Shown piece after piece: positions 18,301-26,965 of a stretch of 64,000 nucleotides of DNA. The stretch's first letter is position 1. Every line of letters starts with the position of its first letter. The translations under genes were made by a program, and so were the position numbers. The stretch comes from Motilibacter deserti. GTDB taxonomy: Bacteria > Actinomycetota > Actinomycetes > Motilibacterales > Motilibacteraceae. Where the stretch lies: assembly GCF_011250635.1 (NCBI RefSeq), contig NZ_JAANNP010000002.1, positions 1 to 64,000 of the forward strand, read 5' to 3'. The notes under the pieces were generated by a model. The model was given only the letters and a program-made list of their open reading frames with translations. It searched no databases and was not told the DNA's origin.

Positions 18301-19209
18301 GTGAGCCAGGACCAGCACGCCCCGCAGGACCCCACGCAGCAGTACCAGCAGCCGCAGTCGGGCGGCGAGCAGATCGAGTCGCCGGGCGGCAGCGGCTCGA
18401 CGACCCGAGCGATGGAGGAGAAGCCGGACCACGGCGAGGAGACCTACCGCGGCACCGGCAAGCTCGAGGGCAAGAAGGCGGTCATCACCGGCGGCGACTC
18501 CGGGATCGGACGGGCGGTGGCCCTCGCCTTCGCCCGCGAGGGCGCCGACGTGCTGATCGCGTACCTCGAGACCGAGGAGGAGGACGCGCAGGAGACCGTG
18601 CGCCTCGTCGAGAGCGCCGGGCGCAAGGCCGTGACGTGCCCGGGCGACCTGCGCGAGGAGGCGCAGTGCCAGCGGGTGATCGACACGGCCGTCGAGCAGC
18701 TCGGCGGCATCGACATCCTGGTGAACAACGCCGCGTACCAGATGGCGCAGCCCGGCGGCATCGAGGACATCACCACCGAGCAGTTCGACCGCGTCATGAA
18801 GACGAACCTCTACGCGATGTTCTGGCTGTCGAAGAAGGCCGTTCCTCACCTGAAGCCAGGTTCGGCCATCATCAACACCGCCTCGATCCAGGCGTCTCAG
18901 CCGTCCCCGCCGCTGCTGGACTACGCCACCACCAAGGCCGGCATCGTGAACTTCACCAAGGGGCTCGGCCAGATGCTGGCGGAGAAGGGGATCCGGGTGA
19001 ACGCCGTCGCCCCCGGCCCGATCTGGACCCCGCTCATCCCGGCCACGATGCCGGAGGAGAAGGTCGAGTCGTTCGGTGAGCAGACGCCGATGGGGCGGGC
19101 CGGCCAGCCGGCCGAGCTCGCGCCCGCGTACGTCTTCTTCGCCTCGCAGGAGTCGAGCTACGTCACCGCCGAGGTCCTGGGCGTCACCGGCGGGCAGCCG
19201 CTGAAGTAG
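18301..19209 (+). CDS. SDR family oxidoreductase, general-stress YhdF/YdaD type
   Basis: A 302-residue short-chain dehydrogenase. An N-terminal Gln/Pro-rich tail and MEEKPDHGEETYRGTGKL precede the Rossmann motif TGGDSGIGRA, then NNAAYQ, the catalytic Ser in INTASIQ and YATTK (Y-x3-K). This layout matches Bacillus YhdF/YdaD/YhxC-type general-stress SDRs; the substrate is unknown. GTG 18301 is chosen because a GAGGAGAG ribosome site lies 8-14 nt upstream and the family N-terminus starts here. The upstream SigB-like promoter supports a stress role. Confidence 0.88.
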   Translation: MSQDQHAPQDPTQQYQQPQSGGEQIESPGGSGSTTRAMEEKPDHGEETYRGTGKLEGKKAVITGGDSGIGRAVALAFAREGADVLIAYLETEEEDAQETVRLVESAGRKAVTCPGDLREEAQCQRVIDTAVEQLGGIDILVNNAAYQMAQPGGIEDITTEQFDRVMKTNLYAMFWLSKKAVPHLKPGSAIINTASIQASQPSPPLLDYATTKAGIVNFTKGLGQMLAEKGIRVNAVAPGPIWTPLIPATMPEEKVESFGEQTPMGRAGQPAELAPAYVFFASQESSYVTAEVLGVTGGQPLK

Positions 19210-19273
19210 TAGCGCCGCACCCCCGCGGCCGTCCAGGCTAGCCGGCATCCGCCCGCCCCTGTGAAGGAGCACG

Positions 19274-19645
19274 ATGCCGGCCAGCCGCAACAAGCAGACC
19301 GTCGAGCGCTACCTCGACGGCTTCCGCCGCACCGACCACGCGCAGATCCTGGAGTGCCTGACGGACGACATCGTCTGGACGGTATACGGCCACTTCCGGC
19401 TGCAGGGCAAGGCGGCGTACGACGAGGCCATCGAGGGGCCCGGGTTCGTCGGGTCGCCCGAGCTGGAGGTCGTCCGCATGGTCGAGGAGGGCGACACCGT
19501 CATGGCCGAGATCGTCGGGCGCGCGCCGCTGCAGGACGGGTCGTGGCAGCGCATGTCGATGGCCGAGGTGTTCGTGCTGCGCGGCGGCCTCATCTGCGAG
19601 CGGCGGGCGTGGGTGATCGCGCTGCACGAGGACGACGTCCGGTAG
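19274..19645 (+). CDS. NTF2-like / SnoaL-like small protein
   Basis: A 123-residue protein of the cone-shaped alpha+beta NTF2-like superfamily. It has the typical opening NKQTVERYLDGFRRTDHAQI, a DDIVWTVYG strand and an HFRLQGKAAYDE segment as in SnoaL-like or ketosteroid-isomerase-like proteins. No catalytic Asp/Tyr set can be assigned with confidence, so it may be a ligand-binding protein. GAAGGAG lies 5-10 nt before ATG 19274. A bidirectional hairpin follows. Confidence 0.75.
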   Translation: MPASRNKQTVERYLDGFRRTDHAQILECLTDDIVWTVYGHFRLQGKAAYDEAIEGPGFVGSPELEVVRMVEEGDTVMAEIVGRAPLQDGSWQRMSMAEVFVLRGGLICERRAWVIALHEDDVR

Positions 19646-19653
19646 GCGGCTGA

Positions 19654-19699
19654 ACAACCTGCATCCGGTGTCGTGGGGACAGCACTGGATGCAGGTTGT
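19654..19699. terminator. bidirectional hairpin between convergent genes
   Basis: ACAACCTGCATCC (19654-19666) pairs perfectly with GGATGCAGGTTGT (19687-19699), and GGTG/CACT inside extends the stem imperfectly. It sits between the NTF2-like gene and the convergent SDR gene. A run of T is weak on both strands (GTTGTCTCT downstream on +). Confidence 0.8.
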
Positions 19700-19714
19700 C
19701 TCTGGCTTGTCCGC

Positions 19715-20449
19715 TCACCACGGAATCTGGCCGGCGTCGTCGAAGAACCCGCCGGTCGGGCTGCCGGCGGGGAGCGTGGCGTACGTGATGGCCACCGCTG
19801 CGCCCTCGACGGGGGTGCGGGAGCCGCTGAACCCGGTGAAGTCGGTGGCGACGAAGCCGGGGCAGACGGCGTTGATGAGGATGCCGGGGTCGGTCTCGGC
19901 GAACCGTCGTGCGTATTGCACGGTCATCGCGTTCAGCATCGTCTTCGAGGGCGCGTAGGCCGCCATGACCGGTCCGGTCCGCAGGGCGAGCGAGGCCATG
20001 TTCGTCGAGACGTTCACGATCCGGGGCGAGGGGGAGCGGCGCAGCAACGGCAGCGCGGCGTTGATGACGCGTACTGCGCCGAGGACGTTGGTCTCCACGT
20101 CGGCCCGGACGACGTCGAGGTCGAGCGTGAGCGGGTCCTGCAGCGCGCCGTCGCCCGTCGGCCCCGAGATGCCGGCGTTGTTGACGACCGCGTCGAGGTG
20201 GCCGAGCTCTGCGTCCAGCTCGTCGATCGCCCGCGCCACGCTCTCGTTCGAGTTGACGTCGATGCGTACGCCCACGACGTCCGCCCCGGTGCGCCGCAGC
20301 TGCGCGAGCGCGGCCTCGCGCCGCTCGTCGTCGCGCGCGCCAACGGCCACGCGGTAGCCGCGCTCGGCAAGCCCTGCTGCGATCTGAAAGCCGATGCCCT
20401 TGTTCGCGCCGGTCACCAGCGCGGTCTTCGTGCTCGTCATGATCCTCAT
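19715..20449 (-). CDS. SDR family oxidoreductase (carbonyl reductase-like)
   Basis: A 244-residue classical SDR that probably reduces a carbonyl compound with NADPH. It has the cofactor motif TGANKGIG, an Arg in GARDDERR that suggests NADP(H), NNAG, the catalytic Ser in VNVSTNMAS and YAPSK (Y-x3-K). TGANKGIGFQIA resembles carbonyl-reductase-like SDRs. The start may be ATG 20449 or ATG 20440; both have poorly spaced ribosome sites. It is divergent from a LysR gene across 82 bp that contains a palindrome, so the LysR protein probably controls it. Confidence 0.87.
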   Translation of the reverse strand: MRIMTSTKTALVTGANKGIGFQIAAGLAERGYRVAVGARDDERREAALAQLRRTGADVVGVRIDVNSNESVARAIDELDAELGHLDAVVNNAGISGPTGDGALQDPLTLDLDVVRADVETNVLGAVRVINAALPLLRRSPSPRIVNVSTNMASLALRTGPVMAAYAPSKTMLNAMTVQYARRFAETDPGILINAVCPGFVATDFTGFSGSRTPVEGAAVAITYATLPAGSPTGGFFDDAGQIPW

Positions 20450-20475
20450 GCTCCGGACGCTTCGGCCCGGCGTCC

Positions 20476-20492
20476 AAGACCGATGCGGTCTT
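20476..20492. promoter_or_regulatory. probable LysR operator between SDR and LysR genes
   Basis: AAGACC-GATGC-GGTCTT is a perfect 6-5-6 palindrome in the middle of the divergent SDR/LysR intergenic region. LysR regulators usually bind partly dyadic sites about 15-17 bp long between themselves and their target, so this is the best candidate operator. Confidence 0.65.
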
Positions 20493-20531
20493 CTGTGATG
20501 CCGCCCGGGTATCCCTCAGTAGCGTCGAGGG

Positions 20532-21410
20532 GTGGAGGACATCGAGATCCGCGAGCTCCGCTACTTCGCCGCAGTGGCCGAGGAGCTCCACTTCGGGCGG
20601 GCGGCCGAGCGCCTGCACATGAGCCAACCGCCGCTGTCGCGCGCCGTCCAGCAGCTCGAGCAGCGCCTCGGCGTCGAGCTGTTCGTACGCGACCGGCGGA
20701 ACGTGCGGTTGACCGGGGCCGGCGAGGTGCTGCTCGAGGAGGCGCGCAACGTCTTCGACGCGGTCACGGCGGCGGTCGAGCGGTCGCGGCGTGCTGCGGC
20801 CCCGGACGAGCGGCTGGTCCTCGTCAGCAAGGCCGGCGCCTCGCACGAGCTGCTCCGCGACCTGCTGGACACGTACGCCGCCCGGGCCGACGCGCTTCCG
20901 GTCGAGGTGCTGCTCTGCGAGGTCGGCGAGCAGCGGCACGTGCTCCGGCAGGGGCGTGCGGACGCCGCGGTGATGCACAGCCCGTACGACGTGATCGGCG
21001 GGTTCGAGACGCAGGAGATGCTGACCGAGGGGCAGGTCGCGATCGTGCCGAAGGCGCACCCGCTCGCGCAGCGACCGCGGCTGACCCTCGCCGACGTGGC
21101 CGAGGTGCCCGACCTCCCGCTCGCCCGGTGGCCGCGGCACGACGGGAGCTATCCGCCCGGGCCGGGGCCGGAGGTGCGTACGCAGGCCGAGATCGCGCAG
21201 CTGGTGTCGCTCGGGCGGGCGCTGCTGGTCATCCCGGAGTCGAGCCGGGCGTGGCAGTGGCCGGACCACGTCGCCGTGCCCGTCGTCGACGCGCCGCTCG
21301 TCACGACGCTGCTGGCGTGGCGGGGGACGGGGCGGGATGGGCGGTTGGACGGGCTCGTCGCCGCAGCGGTGGAGGTCGCGGGGCGGGAGGGGGTGCGGGC
21401 GGTGGGGTGA
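20532..21410 (+). CDS. LysR family transcriptional regulator
   Basis: A 292-residue LysR-type regulator. The winged-helix domain covers residues ~5-65 (LRYFAAVAEELHFGRAAERL, SQPPLSRAVQQLE) and the periplasmic-binding-like effector domain covers ~95-285. GTG 20532 is preceded by TAGCGT (20520-20525) with 6 nt between, so it is probably translated from a leaderless mRNA. The divergent SDR gene and the palindrome between them are the likely target. The effector ligand is unknown. Confidence 0.92.
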   Translation: MEDIEIRELRYFAAVAEELHFGRAAERLHMSQPPLSRAVQQLEQRLGVELFVRDRRNVRLTGAGEVLLEEARNVFDAVTAAVERSRRAAAPDERLVLVSKAGASHELLRDLLDTYAARADALPVEVLLCEVGEQRHVLRQGRADAAVMHSPYDVIGGFETQEMLTEGQVAIVPKAHPLAQRPRLTLADVAEVPDLPLARWPRHDGSYPPGPGPEVRTQAEIAQLVSLGRALLVIPESSRAWQWPDHVAVPVVDAPLVTTLLAWRGTGRDGRLDGLVAAAVEVAGREGVRAVG

Positions 21411-21758
21411 GGTGGGGGTCTCTGGCGGCGCAGTGGGTGGGGCGTGCGCTTGGCGCCGGGAAGGCCTGGGCCGGAGGTTACTGGCGTGGGCGGTGTGCTC
21501 GCTGCCGCTGTTGCTGACGGCTGAGCGCGTGTGGCGGTGGAATCGCTGCATGCTTCGGGGGCCTGTTGTTCCGGCGACGTGGAGTAGAGGCTTCAATTCT
21601 CGATGGCCTAGCGGTCGATCTGTCTTTCATGGCGACCGTGATTGTTGGCTGAGTGATTCCAAGGCGTCTTGGCCCAGGCGTCGTACCGCACTGAACGTGG
21701 CCACGTGTTGTTCGGCCGCAGCCGCGCTGCGTACGATGTCCCTGGTCCTGTCGCCGGC

Positions 21759-21795
21759 TTGTCCACAGACGCGATTCCGGCTTCCACTGTCCACA
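21759..21795 (+). promoter_or_regulatory. two DnaA-box-like sequences
   Basis: TTGTCCACA (21759-21767) is an exact match to the preferred actinobacterial DnaA box. CTGTCCACA (21787-21795) fits the relaxed Streptomyces consensus. They lie in the same orientation 28 bp apart (start to start). Nothing else typical of an origin (dnaA, dnaN, a long box array) is present, so this is not called as oriC. Confidence 0.45.
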
Positions 21796-21931
21796 AGTGC
21801 GATGGTGTGAAGCGTGGGAGGGATGTCGATGCGCTAGAGCCAGGGCGTAGCGGCGATCGCTCGTCAGGCCTGCGTCGCGTGACGCCTGAACTAGACTTCA
21901 CAACTTATGAGTGAGAAGCGAGCTTCTTCAA

Positions 21932-21950
21932 TACCCCGGTTTCCGGGGTA
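21932..21950. terminator. perfect hairpin upstream of the 13E12-type gene
   Basis: TACCCCGG-TTT-CCGGGGTA is a perfect 8-bp stem with a 3-nt loop, 20 bp before a TAGGTT -10 candidate. It could be a terminator isolating the HNH gene from upstream transcription, or an operator. Confidence 0.5.
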
Positions 21951-21982
21951 GTTCTGTCAGTGGTGGCGGCTAGGTTGTGGGC

Positions 21983-23517
21983 GTGGGAAACAGCACGGTC
22001 GACGCGCTCGCGGCATTGTCCGCGGCGCTCGACGCGTTGTCCGCCCTCGACCTCGCCGACCTGTCGGCCGAGCACGCGGGGGAGTTCGCCGCCGCCTTGG
22101 TCGTGCAGGAGCAGCGGGTGGCCGCGACCCGGGCGCGCGTTCTGGCCGTGTTCGACGGGTCCGGCGCCGCCCGCGCGGCGGGGGCGACCTCGACCGCGGC
22201 GTGGCTGCGTGGCACGGCGAACCTCTCGCCCGGCGACGCCGCGGCCGCGGTCCGCGCCGCCCGCACAGTGCGCGACCTGCCGCAGACGGCGGAGGCGTTC
22301 GCCGCCGGTGAGATCTCCTGGCGGCACGTGGACCTGATTGGCAAGGCGCTGCGCAAGCACGGAGTCGAGCCCCTGCGCGCCGCCGAGCCCACCCTGCTTC
22401 CGCTGGCCAAGGCCGCCCCGCCCGCCGAGCTGGCCGTCGCGCTCCGGCGCCTGGACGAGGCGCTCGACCCCGACGGCGCCGCCCAGCGCGAGGTGGAGCG
22501 CTGGTCCAAGCGCCGGCTCTCGCTCGTGACGGGGATGGACGGGCTGACGTTCCTCGACGGCATCATGGCCGACGAGGACGCCGAGCTGGTGCGGTCGGTG
22601 CTGCTGCCGCTGGCCAAGCCCACCCGTCTGCCGGACGGGACCCCGGACGACCGGACCGGCGGGCAGCGGATGATGGACGCCCTGCTCGACGCGCTGAAGC
22701 GGGTCGCCGACTCCGGCACCCTGCCCGAGTCCGGCGGGCAGAAGCCGCACGTCACCCTCGTCGTCCCGCTCGACACCCTGCGCGCCGAGACGCGCACGCA
22801 GGCCGGGAGCGCGTTGACCGCGTTGTGGGGCGCGTCGTTCGGACGCGATGAGCTGCGGCGGGTGTGCTGTGACGCCGCCGTGACCACGGTGATCGCCGGC
22901 TCGGACGGAGCAGCGCTCGACCCACAGGACTTGAGGCAGTACCTGGACGCGGAAGGGCGGTTCCTCGGCCTCGGCCAGCCCTTGGCCCTCGGGGAATCGG
23001 CACGCACGGTCAGCGTCGCCCAACGCAAAGCGCTCAACGTGCGTGACGGCGGGTGCGTCTTCCCCGGCTGCGACCGGCCACCGCCGTTCACCGACGCCCA
23101 CCACGTCGTCTTCTGGTCACATTCCGGCCCGACCGACCTCGACAATCTGATCCTGTGTGCCGTCGGCACCACCGCATCGTCCACCACGACCACTGGCGGG
23201 TCGAGCACGACCCGCACCGCCCCGGCCTGTTCCGCTTCCGCCACCCGACGGTCGATCAATGGCTGCGCGGCCAGCACGCCACCGACCGCAACCCCGGAAG
23301 CCGACTACCCCTGTCTTGGTTGGGCCAGGGCCAGGGCCAGGGCCAGGGCCAGGGCCGAGAGCTAGGACGAGACCAGCGCCGAGAACGAGACCAGTTCCGG
23401 GACCAGGACCGGAACGAGGACTCCCGTGACGTGCACAACGCGGGATGCGGTTCCGCCCTCGCCCGCGAGGCCGACGCGGTCATGGACGTTGCCACGTCAC
23501 TCGTGCCGGCGACCTGA
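21983..23517 (+). pseudogene. 13E12/DUF222 family HNH endonuclease, frameshifted inside the HNH motif
   Basis: The first ~390 codons encode a DUF222 domain (AAALVVQEQRVAATRARVLA) followed by the HNH start RDGGCVFPGCDRPP and FTDAHHVVFWSHSG. After DLDNLIL the frame is lost. The expected CRRHHRIVHHDHW continues in another frame to a stop at 23517. Removing one TG from the TGTGTG run at 23154-23159 restores a single frame. As read, the upstream frame runs to 23365 with a nonsense tail that lacks the second half of the nuclease motif. TAGGTT at 21971-21976 ends 6 nt before GTG 21983, suggesting a leaderless mRNA. DUF222 genes are repeat-family genes (REP13E12 in Mycobacterium). Confidence 0.85.
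23322..23356. repeat. GGGCCA hexanucleotide tandem repeat
   Basis: Five perfect GGGCCA units plus a partial one lie in the 3' part of the 13E12-type gene. In the restored frame they encode alternating Gly-Gln; in the shifted frame they encode Arg-Ala. The following 60 bp is a degenerate GACCAG-like Asp/Arg/Gln-rich tail. Confidence 0.9.
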
Positions 23518-24914
23518 ACGGCGCCGCAAGGGGCTCGTTCGGGTCGATCGGCGACAGCGCGCCTCGGGCCGCACCGCACTTGCGGCACCCTCTCCGGGTG
23601 CTGCACCTTCCCGCGCCCGTGCCGCTCGACATCGAAGGGGTCGAGGGGTGGCTGGTCCGTGGGGCGCGCGGCTCCTCCCACAGCGTCGCCGCAGTCGGGA
23701 TGCGCGCAGGCGCCGTCGTCGAGCCCCTCGCAGACATCGGCCTCGGGCACCTGCGCATGCACACGGCAATGGAGCGGGCGGGTTGGGAGGCGACCGAGCT
23801 GGCCTGCCTCGACCGGCCCTGGGCCAACGGCCTGCTCCTCACGGCGTGGCCGGGACGGATGCCGGGCGCCCTTCGTCAGCTCGAGCGCGCGCTGCGCAAG
23901 CCGGGGCGGCTGCGGCTCGAGCGGCTCCGGGCGGAGCTGCGGAACGAGTACGACGAGGGCAGGGACACCCCGCGGACAGGCCTGCAGGCGCGCTTCGGCG
24001 TGCTCGGCCCCGGGCGCTACGGGCTTCCCGAGCTAGGCGTGGAGAGGCTGCGCTCCGTCGCTGGACTGACGCAGGCGGGTGGCGGCGGAGCGGCGCTTCC
24101 GCCGGCGCGGCAGCTGGGGCCGCTGCCGGCCTGGAGACGCGGGCCGGACGGCTGGAGCATGGTGTGCCTCGGCTTCGCCGACGTCCGCACCGCGGAGGCC
24201 GCCGCGTACGCCATCGACACCCAGCTCGACGCGGCGGACGAGGACTGGATCGGCTCGGCGGTCGTCATGACCGGGCTCGCCTCGCCGCCCGTGCTCGTCG
24301 TGTCGGCGGTCGCGGGCGAGGGCAGCGCGGCACGCCTCGCCGGGGCGGTGCAGCGCGTGGCCGCTGGCGCGGCCGACGCCGAGGAGCTGCGCCGGTGGCG
24401 GCGGGCTCACGACCCGCTCGACGAGGTGGAGGCGCTGCAGCTCGAGGCACGCCGCGCGCTGGGATGCAGCCTGCTCGGCCTTCCCGTGCTGAGCGCGTCA
24501 GAGCTGGAGGCGGCTCGCGCCGCCGTGCTGCCGGAAGACGTCGCGGCCGCGGCCGGGCACGCGGTCGCGCACGACGCGGTGTGGGTGCTGCCCGGCCCGC
24601 CGCCGCCGGCGCTGGAGGCGCTGCCGGAGTGGCGGGCGCAGCCCGTGGACGGGCAGAGCTGGTCCCGCCATGGGGGTCAGCGCCTCCGGCTGGGCGAGGC
24701 AGGCGTCACGGTCGAGGCCGAGCGGGGCGAGCGCACCGTGCGGTGGGACGAGTGCGCGGCCGTCGTGCGCACGACGGAGGGGTGGACGTTGGTCGGGGAC
24801 GACGGCGAGCGGGTCGTCGTCGTGCCGCGGGAGTGGCGTGACGGCGACGTATTGGGCCGCCGGCTGGCGCGCGAGGCGCGCGGACGCGAGCAGGTCGAGA
24901 TGCCCGCGCGGTGA
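23445..24914 (+). CDS. M16 (insulinase/pitrilysin)-like protein with lost zinc motif, fused to a C-terminal PH-like domain
   Basis: Not a named family member that I can recall; the following is read from the sequence. Residues ~75-110 (SVAAVGMRAGAVVEP, then GLGHLRMHTAMERAGW) align with the M16 core 'VGAGSRxE...GLAHxLEH'. The catalytic HxxEH reads HLRMH, so Glu is lost. A second M16-like stretch is LRLERLRAELRNEYDEGRD, then FGVLGPGRYGLPELG. The last ~70 residues (GVTVEAERGERTVRWDE, WTLVGDDGERVVVVPRE) look like a bacterial PH domain. It is probably an inactive scaffold or binding protein without a signal peptide. The start is unclear: ATG 23445 overlaps the pseudogene by 73 nt, and GTG 23598 is a likely alternative. 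Confidence 0.6.
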   Translation: MRFRPRPRGRRGHGRCHVTRAGDLNGAARGSFGSIGDSAPRAAPHLRHPLRVLHLPAPVPLDIEGVEGWLVRGARGSSHSVAAVGMRAGAVVEPLADIGLGHLRMHTAMERAGWEATELACLDRPWANGLLLTAWPGRMPGALRQLERALRKPGRLRLERLRAELRNEYDEGRDTPRTGLQARFGVLGPGRYGLPELGVERLRSVAGLTQAGGGGAALPPARQLGPLPAWRRGPDGWSMVCLGFADVRTAEAAAYAIDTQLDAADEDWIGSAVVMTGLASPPVLVVSAVAGEGSAARLAGAVQRVAAGAADAEELRRWRRAHDPLDEVEALQLEARRALGCSLLGLPVLSASELEAARAAVLPEDVAAAAGHAVAHDAVWVLPGPPPPALEALPEWRAQPVDGQSWSRHGGQRLRLGEAGVTVEAERGERTVRWDECAAVVRTTEGWTLVGDDGERVVVVPREWRDGDVLGRRLAREARGREQVEMPAR

Positions 24915-24927
24915 GGACGGGACGGGG

Positions 24928-25770
24928 TCAGCCGGCCGGCGACGGCACCGGAGCCGGCGCCACCGGCCGCTGCCGTGGCGCCCCGACGACCGCCGTGTGG
25001 ACGTGGTCGAGGTGGCGCAGGACCGGGTTGGTCGTGTTGCCGCTCGGGTGGACGTAGTCGCGCCAGCCCATCGACCCGGCCCAGACGGTCCAGATGTGGT
25101 CCGACCAGATCACCGACAGCAGGCTCAGCGGCTCGGCGTGCGCGACGAGCCAGTGGGCGAGCACCCATCCACGGCGGGTCTGCTCGGCGCTGCGCGGGGT
25201 GAGGAAGACGTCGATCGCACGCCCCTCGTAGTGCGCGCTGTTGTCCACGTGGCCGCTCGACACACCGCCGGCCGCGAAGCCGCCCATCGGCAGCGCGCCG
25301 AACGCCGCGCGGATCGCGCGCTGCAGTCGTACGCCCCGCGGGGTGAGGCCGTTGGCGGTCAGCTGCTCGTCGCGTACGCCGTAGTCGCGCTGCGCCGTGC
25401 AGGTGAGCCCGGCAGCGCGGGTGAGCGCGCGGACGACGGCGGGCCCGTCACCGGCCAGCTCGGGCAGGGCGGCCTCGACCGCCCGCTCCGTGGCCCGGGC
25501 GCCCAGCCCGTCGCGCGTCGCGTGCGCCAGCGCGTCGGTGAGCTGCTGCGCCTGCTCCGACTCGAGCATGACGGTCCGTTGCCGGGACAGCGTGAGGGTG
25601 CACGGCGGCGGCGGGGTGTAGGGGCGGGCCGACGCCACAGCGGTCGGTGCCGCCGACGGGGCAGCCGCTGGTGCGGCCGGCGCGTCGTTGCACGCGGTGA
25701 GGAGGGCGACGGCGGCGACGCCGAGCGCGGCGAGACGGACGCGGCGCGAGCGCGAGGCGGTGCGGGTCAT
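24928..25770 (-). CDS. lipoprotein with ARB_07466-like C-terminal (M15/DacB-like) domain
   Basis: A 280-residue predicted lipoprotein. ATG 25770 gives the signal peptide with lipobox LLTAC (Cys ~26), then an Ala/Pro linker. The C-terminal ~130 residues carry SSGHVDNSAHYEGRAIDVF and HLDHVHTAVVG, the His/Asp pattern of a D-Ala-D-Ala-peptidase-like fold (ARB_07466 type). It is thus probably anchored outside the membrane and acts on or binds cell wall. The next gene upstream on this strand encodes a paralogous C-terminal domain; the two probably arose by duplication. Enzyme activity is not proven for this family. Confidence 0.75.
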   Translation of the reverse strand: MTRTASRSRRVRLAALGVAAVALLTACNDAPAAPAAAPSAAPTAVASARPYTPPPPCTLTLSRQRTVMLESEQAQQLTDALAHATRDGLGARATERAVEAALPELAGDGPAVVRALTRAAGLTCTAQRDYGVRDEQLTANGLTPRGVRLQRAIRAAFGALPMGGFAAGGVSSGHVDNSAHYEGRAIDVFLTPRSAEQTRRGWVLAHWLVAHAEPLSLLSVIWSDHIWTVWAGSMGWRDYVHPSGNTTNPVLRHLDHVHTAVVGAPRQRPVAPAPVPSPAG

Positions 25771-25828
25771 CGGCCCGTACAACATCCGGCGGGGTGGCTA
25801 CGTTCCGCCAGTCGGCCCGGACAGCCGG

Positions 25829-26965
25829 TCACGCACCCCGCACGACGTCGACGTGGACGTGGTCGCGGTGCTGGAGGATGTCGTTCGACGGGTTCGACGA
25901 GCGGTAGGGCCGCCACCCCTCGTCGGAGCGGCGGGCGGTCCAGATCTGGTCGTCGTAGATCACCGTGGCGATCGAGAGCCGGTCGGCGTGGGCCACGAGC
26001 CAGTACGACAAGGCCCACCCGTCGCGCTGGTTGGCCGCCGACGCGGGGCGGAAGAACACGTCGACCGCCCGCCCCTCGTAGTGCGCCGAGCCCTCCATGT
26101 GCCCGGACGAGACACCGCCCGGGGCGAAGCCGCCGAGCGACTGCTTGCCGAACACACGCTCGACCTGTGCCCGCACAGCCGCCGCCCGCGCGGTGAGGCC
26201 ACCACGCCCCATCGGCTGCGGGCGTACGTCGGCCGACCCGACCTCGCACGTGAGCGCCCCCTCGGAGGCGCCGGTGAGGGCGAGCGCGAGGGCGGCCGCC
26301 TCGTCCTCGTGCTTGGCGTAGGCGTCGGGGTAGCCGCTGCGCTGCACGGCCTGCGCCGCCTGGGTGAGCGGCATGGCCTGCCAGCCGCCGACCTTGCGCA
26401 GCCCGGCGTAGAACCTGCCGGCGGCGTGCACCGGGTCCCGCACCTGCTTCGCCGTGCCCCATCCCTGGGACGGGCGCTGCTGGAAGAGCCCGAGCGAGTC
26501 CCGGTCCCCGTGGTCGAGGTTGCGCAGGCCGGACTCCTGCATCGCGGTCGCGAGGGCGACCGTGACGGCCCGGCGGTTCATCCCCTGTCGCAGCCCGACC
26601 CCGGCGATCGTCGACGCGTTGGCGGCCTGGTCCACGTCGAGCGACAGGACGGTGTCGCCACCGCGCTGCACCTGGCACGGCTTGTCGCCGGGGACGAGGG
26701 GCAGCTCGTCGGGGAGCAGGTCGAGCACGTTGCGCGCGAGCAGCGTGATGCCGAGCCCGATGCCGAGCAGGACGGCGGCCCAGCCCCAGCGGGTGTCGCG
26801 GCGCGGTGGCCGACGGGCCGGAGGGCGGCGCGGGCGGGCCGGGGGAGCGGCCGGCCGGCGCGTACCGGTCGATGCGGTGCGTTTGGCGGGCGCGCGGCCC
26901 GCCCCGCTCCGCGCGGCAGGCGCAGGACGGGGCGTCCGTTGCGGTCCGCGGGTCGTCGGTGGCAC
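25829..26965 (-). CDS. membrane-anchored protein with lytic-transglycosylase-like and ARB_07466-like domains
   Basis: A 378-residue protein. The first ~57 residues are a basic Pro/Arg-rich cytoplasmic tail. A TM helix follows (WGWAAVLLGIGLGITLLA), then a lysozyme-like module (about 125-200: VALATAMQESGLRNLDHGDR, DSLGLFQQRPSQGWG). The C-terminal domain has GHMEGSAHYEGRAVDVF and QHRDHVHVDVV, matching the neighbouring lipoprotein. The Gln-Glu-Ser and GLFQQR features are those of resuscitation-factor/transglycosylase-like domains, so a peptidoglycan role is likely. GTG 26965 is the start; the ribosome site is weak. It is 58 bp upstream of the lipoprotein gene on the same strand. Confidence 0.75.
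   Translation of the reverse strand: MPPTTRGPQRTPRPAPAARSGAGRAPAKRTASTGTRRPAAPPARPRRPPARRPPRRDTRWGWAAVLLGIGLGITLLARNVLDLLPDELPLVPGDKPCQVQRGGDTVLSLDVDQAANASTIAGVGLRQGMNRRAVTVALATAMQESGLRNLDHGDRDSLGLFQQRPSQGWGTAKQVRDPVHAAGRFYAGLRKVGGWQAMPLTQAAQAVQRSGYPDAYAKHEDEAAALALALTGASEGALTCEVGSADVRPQPMGRGGLTARAAAVRAQVERVFGKQSLGGFAPGGVSSGHMEGSAHYEGRAVDVFFRPASAANQRDGWALSYWLVAHADRLSIATVIYDDQIWTARRSDEGWRPYRSSNPSNDILQHRDHVHVDVVRGA

Follow-up and report, generated by a model that had tools for sequence, protein, structure and literature searches.

An active M16 peptidase carries an HxxEH motif, whose glutamate is catalytic, and a distal glutamate that serves as the third zinc ligand; the roles of the zinc ligands and of the catalytic glutamate have been described (PMC12731061). 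The substrate-binding half of these enzymes needs an R/Y motif as well (PMC8960859). M16 enzymes mutated at the glutamate (1hr8, 6b05) have been crystallised, as the titles of the two structures put it, with substrate bound. In Streptomyces, M16 clusters have been mentioned without a tie to the fusion considered here (PMC13118837).

The gene described below lies in a 64,000-nucleotide stretch of Motilibacter deserti DNA (the window) and encodes an M16 part and a PH-like module in a single chain. We favour the reading, at a probability of roughly 0.55, that it is an inactive, fast-diverging orphan of an M16B-PH family and that its product is likely a non-catalytic binding protein. The building blocks of the chain are already known, and the fusion is common and apparently without a name: for neither the fusion nor the TPR-like partner described below did we find a Pfam-level name, an NCBIfam model, a PADLOC model or, in the open-access literature searched, a paper. 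NCBIfam and PADLOC likewise had no match to the window protein or to those relatives that were run against them.

The Reading Frame and Its Limits

The frame occupies 23445-24914 of the forward strand and encodes 489 amino acids, as the initial annotation had it. Its likely coding part is shorter (23598-24914, +; residues 52-489 and the stop), as indicated by codon bias and by the match to the family profile (E 3.6e-18). From about 23595 onwards, the in-frame codon log-odds, measured against the window's other genes, exceeds that of the other two forward frames in each 150-bp block, and positions 23445-23594 show no codon bias (frame-0 log-odds -0.29). The in-frame 5′ extension (23445-23597, +) is Arg-rich and has no counterpart in relatives. 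Because codon bias begins only near 23595, translation probably starts near the GTG at 23598, the exact start codon being provisional, and the first ~51 codons probably stay untranslated.

The frame is open and codon-biased across 438 codons, over which about 4.9 stops would be expected in a random sequence of the same G+C. Openness alone is weak evidence, since the DNA is G+C-rich and another forward frame is open over the same stretch for 471 codons. The indels that separate the window copy from its relatives are all in frame, and no frameshift is seen. It is the in-frame indels, along with the some five stops expected by chance, that lead us to regard the gene as having been kept as a coding sequence.

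M16 Identity of the Window Protein

Homology was tested with a profile of 49 relatives, the window protein being left out of the profile to avoid circularity. The profile matches the window protein at 75.5 bits (E 3.6e-18 at Z = 2e7, or 20 million sequences), the best of 200 shuffles reaching 2.0 bits, which is not significant. At the same Z, the PH part alone scores E 5.3e-10 and the M16 part alone E 0.0012, a value that becomes 1.2e-8 when the database is taken as the 204 test sequences. The match falls in two collinear blocks, residues 62-203 and 299-489. The predicted structure (pLDDT 68 overall) shows the M16 fold in outline; its structural matches include M16 chains throughout the list, the best with Z 12.3 over 282 residues, and the best Foldseek match is 3ami (E 3.5e-6). 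With a profile match and two M16 half-domains, the second poorly modelled, the protein belongs to the M16 superfamily. It is an M16 homologue beyond chance resemblance, and the degenerate M16 peptidase first proposed from the sequence holds up.

Searched alone, the window protein finds no sequence match in the PDB and no Pfam family above cut-off, the one Pfam match, to YcxB in the tail, being sub-threshold. The missing Pfam match and the weakness of the tail match are what one would see if the frame were spurious, or if its resemblance to M16 and PH domains were fortuitous. The profile E-value with its collinear domains, the fold match and the codon bias refute that idea, to which we give a negligible probability.

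Zinc Site and Erosion of the M16 Part

At the place of HxxEH the window protein reads HLRMH (residues 102-106; 23748-23762, +). The initial annotation had taken the catalytic base for lost, and the catalytic glutamate is indeed replaced, by Met105; the motif as a whole is not gone, since both histidines stay. The Met105 codon is ATG (23757-23759), and since going from Glu to Met here takes two base changes, it is not a one-base read error. Glu168 (23946-23948, +), at the position of the third zinc ligand, aligns with a family glutamate found in 96% of the 49 relatives, so that all three zinc-ligand residues (H102, H106, E168) are present. R248 and Y255 are paired with the R/Y motif by MAFFT in two alignments, with the right spacing, and lie outside the blocks aligned by HMMER. 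Retention of at least five of six active-site positions is weakly beyond chance, with P about 0.05 given 42% retention overall. The kept ligand residues are suggestive of retained metal binding, short of proof.

Among 99 near-invariant positions of the family, 42 are kept and 57 lost; by region, 19/45 are kept in the first M16 half, 9/32 in the second and 14/22 in the PH-like part. The first M16 domain (23628-24053, +; residues 62-203, profile positions 5-144) is modelled with pLDDT about 55-89 over most of its length. The second begins with an eroded segment (24054-24338, +; residues 204-298) that HMMER leaves unaligned, that contains R248 and Y255, and in which, as alignment gaps show, two helices of the relatives, one of them long, and a strand are missing. 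Its pLDDT is mostly below 50, as it is around residues 182-290 generally, and about 95 residues of the second half are unalignable to the family. The remainder of this domain (24339-24614, +; residues 299-390) aligns from profile position 277 onward.

The PH-like Tail

The PH-like module (24654-24878, +; residues 404-478) is the best kept part of the protein and follows the M16 part directly, as in the rest of the family (E 5.3e-10, Z = 2e7). Its predicted topology is seven strands and a C-terminal helix, with pLDDT mostly 85-96 over residues 404-478, and fits the helix-capped, seven-stranded barrel of PH domains. The model of an intact Sporichthyaceae relative (locus L048) shows the same seven-strand and helix tail, also at high confidence. 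YcxB (PF14317, E 0.0011) and bPH_6 (PF10756, E 0.1) are like the tail in strand order and length, both matches lying below the curated cut-offs. A profile comparison of the tail with bPH_6 gave no support (probability 5%), and a PDB search with the profile of the PH part returned nothing significant. The tail is best called PH-like, on its modelled topology and the sub-threshold Pfam matches; a PH-like C-terminal domain, as originally suggested, agrees with both.

A Widespread Actinobacterial Family

A single-chain fusion of this kind had at first been put forward as a candidate for an undescribed architecture. The same chain is in fact encoded at no fewer than 325 loci of sequenced species, nearly all of them Actinomycetia (Micromonospora, Actinoplanes, Streptomyces and Actinomadura are among the genera), and normally with an intact HLxEH in the same place. 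These hundreds of relatives remove the case for a new architecture, and leave that for degeneracy of the window copy standing. The loci come from a family-alignment scan of one-genome-per-species contigs, 79 of them fetched for detail. The scan pattern demands an intact HLxEHL, which biases the ratio of intact to broken copies, and broken tandem copies turned up only as neighbours of loci with this pattern.

The same contigs scanned with the window protein alone gave nothing. In a tblastn-type search with it, a few Actinomycetia showed weak matches, most of them C-terminal; the proteins behind these combine the same tail with an M16 part whose HLxEH is intact. Short matches at L006 (a LysR-type protein), L008 and L009 are read as chance. 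Profile searches found about 18 members among 394 Actinomycetia genomes, the motif being intact in 15 of the 17 that are full-length, and one member outside Actinomycetia in the phylum sample; the plasmids and viral contigs searched held no relative. The zinc motif of the relatives reads HLVEH, HLLEH or HLIEH. The intact Sporichthyaceae relative is modelled at pLDDT 95 and superposes on M16B peptidases with Z up to 32.2 over 356 residues; by sequence, the family profile matches M16 chains in the PDB, best 4nnz (E 5e-15).

A TPR-like gene of ~317 aa adjoins the M16-PH gene in 64 of the 79 loci, usually directly upstream and with overlapping stop and start codons. In five of the 15 other loci, four from Actinomadura and one from Actinocorallia, the TPR region is fused to the C-terminus of the M16-PH protein (hmmsearch E 1e-60 to 2e-71). 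Neighbourhood and fusion together make a physical or functional link between M16-PH protein and TPR-like partner likely. The partner is usual and not universal, some intact members, the Sporichthyaceae one among them, being without it too. The single-chain M16-PH-TPR proteins (L049, L050, L051, L061 and L079; 8.0-10.5 kb) belong to Actinomadura and Actinocorallia, and other genera have the separate, overlapping gene. One further locus (L030, genome G390) has an open frame of 749 aa, in which a family member is extended at its C-terminus by ~250 residues of unassigned nature.

A hydrophobic segment near the C-terminus is found in 71 of 92 family sequences. The members with an intact site are presumably zinc peptidases that work in the cytoplasm, tethered to the membrane.

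Loss of the active site recurs in the family. In five Actinoplanes loci (L065, L068, L071, L110, L119) a broken copy, reading RLVEH or RLVER and usually without the distal Glu, stands directly beside an intact one; such tandem pairs are candidates for active/inactive heterodimers. Genome G043 has a member with HLAGH. Inactivation has therefore happened more than once.

An Orphan in Its Genome

The window protein has no membrane segment. Its genome (G000) encodes no TPR partner, the same search being positive in two control genomes, and no second M16-PH family member; the M16-PH gene is absent, too, from the four other genomes examined of the same bacterial family. The terminal branch of the window copy is the longest by far: it measures 4.5 changes per column, where the median is 0.41. 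The placement of the copy in the tree is uncertain.

In the same-genus genome G001, whose flanking genes are 74-94% identical, the M16-PH gene is absent. No stretch there (L139 10400-11450) matches window positions of about 19200-24930, the flanks being kept; in its place stand a remnant of HNH sequence, 127 bp long, and another ORF, which is small and membrane-protein-like. Judged from the two sequences, the difference is an insertion or deletion between the species.

The gene upstream in the window, of the DUF222/HNH type (21977-23517), has a frameshift inside the HNH motif, so that its first part lies in ORF 21977-23365 and the HNH tail in ORF 23053-23517. Downstream, 24931-25785 and 25832-26965 (-) encode neighbouring paralogous proteins with no Pfam match at E 0.01; relatives of the latter stand near dapD in G001, G003 and G004.

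Much of this could also describe a relic: a once-active M16-PH gene, parted from its operon partner and now drifting under relaxed constraint, with no present function. The extreme branch length (4.5 vs. 0.41) fits, and so do the missing catalytic Glu, the 57 near-invariant positions lost out of 99 and the absence of core structural segments; the eroded state of the second M16 half is equally compatible with decay. The gene is an orphan, adjoins a frameshifted gene, and is missing from a same-genus genome whose flanking genes are 74-94% identical. However, the protein has diverged to saturation without a stop or frameshift in 438 codons, codon bias persists in each block from 23595, and the indels are all in frame. 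So diverged a decaying gene should have broken its frame, and the kept frame and codon bias argue against simple neutral decay. Decay is nevertheless a serious rival, if a less probable one, because there is no close orthologue for measuring selection and another frame is open by chance.

M16B enzymes often form active/inactive pairs, the inactive chain keeping the R/Y pair (PMC8960859, PMC12731061), and the window protein could be such a chain. The spacing of R248 and Y255 is right for it, and the Actinoplanes tandem pairs supply examples within the family. The active subunit would have to be the sole other M16 gene of the genome, on contig C234 at about 496-497 kb, with HxxEH intact. This only canonical M16 gene lies about 470 kb away, so no active partner is encoded nearby; it is, moreover, the ordinary M16 gene of all relatives, including those that lack the window gene. 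The R/Y stretch falls outside the HMMER alignment, and the second half-domain is eroded. A heterodimer is thus very unlikely here. The initial annotation had proposed looking for the fusion beside an active M16 protein: the five Actinoplanes loci provide this arrangement, and the window's genome does not.

We return to the orphan reading. Members of the family are single chains in which a PH-like module follows two M16 half-domains; a membrane segment is often present, and a TPR-like partner is normal. In the window copy, the general base is lost, the second half-domain is eroded, and the anchor and partner are missing; peptide cleavage would have been lost with them, and a soluble binding role, through the PH-like module and the remaining first M16 domain, may have been left. 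Such a role appears most likely because these two parts are the best kept. Of the peptide-binding or membrane-docking function first suggested, a candidate non-catalytic binding protein thus survives. A narrower version is a natural substrate trap, a pseudo-peptidase that binds peptides uncut and whose PH-like module ties the captured peptide to membrane or partner. A site that keeps its zinc ligands and differs in the general base alone might bind peptide without cleaving it; we consider this unlikely. If true, the window copy, HLAGH in G043 and RLVEH in Actinoplanes would make up no fewer than three independent inactivations in an M16-PH/TPR system that is otherwise active. A link to anti-phage or conflict systems was also considered; no evidence was found, and PADLOC had no match.

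Significance and Comparison with Known Systems

With a fusion so common and hundreds of intact relatives, the window copy is not a new kind of protein; it is an odd, possibly fading or repurposed relative, and taken alone a curiosity. It points to a widespread, unnamed actinobacterial module, in which a TPR-like partner accompanies an M16 peptidase with a PH-like tail, and which is useful for asking about the cytoplasmic role of M16 enzymes in multicellular Actinomycetia. Because its active site has been lost repeatedly, and because active and inactive copies occur as tandem pairs, the family is a test bed for how peptidases become non-catalytic partners.

Three described systems bear comparison. 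In engineered yeast MPP beta-E73Q (1hr8) and FusC E83A (6b05) only the catalytic Glu is replaced and the metal ligands are kept, as in the window copy, whereas the latter has a natural Met replacement and further erosion, trapping being a candidate reading only. The inactive M16B subunits and the mitochondrial core proteins I/II share with it an M16 fold without a working HxxEH (PMC12731061); their place is next to an active subunit or within complex III, whereas the window's genome has no family partner. The bacterial M16B metallopeptidases (BHP of Bacillus halodurans, 3hdi; Sph2681/Sph2682, 3amj; TTHA1264/TTHA1265, 7v4y; PA0371/PA0372, 4nnz) have, like the family, two M16 half-domains of ~370 residues, on which the intact relative superposes with Z 30-32. 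Compared with these enzymes, the window copy lacks the catalytic Glu as well as a portion of the second half, and the family as a whole adds the PH-like C-terminal module, often a membrane segment, and the TPR-like partner.
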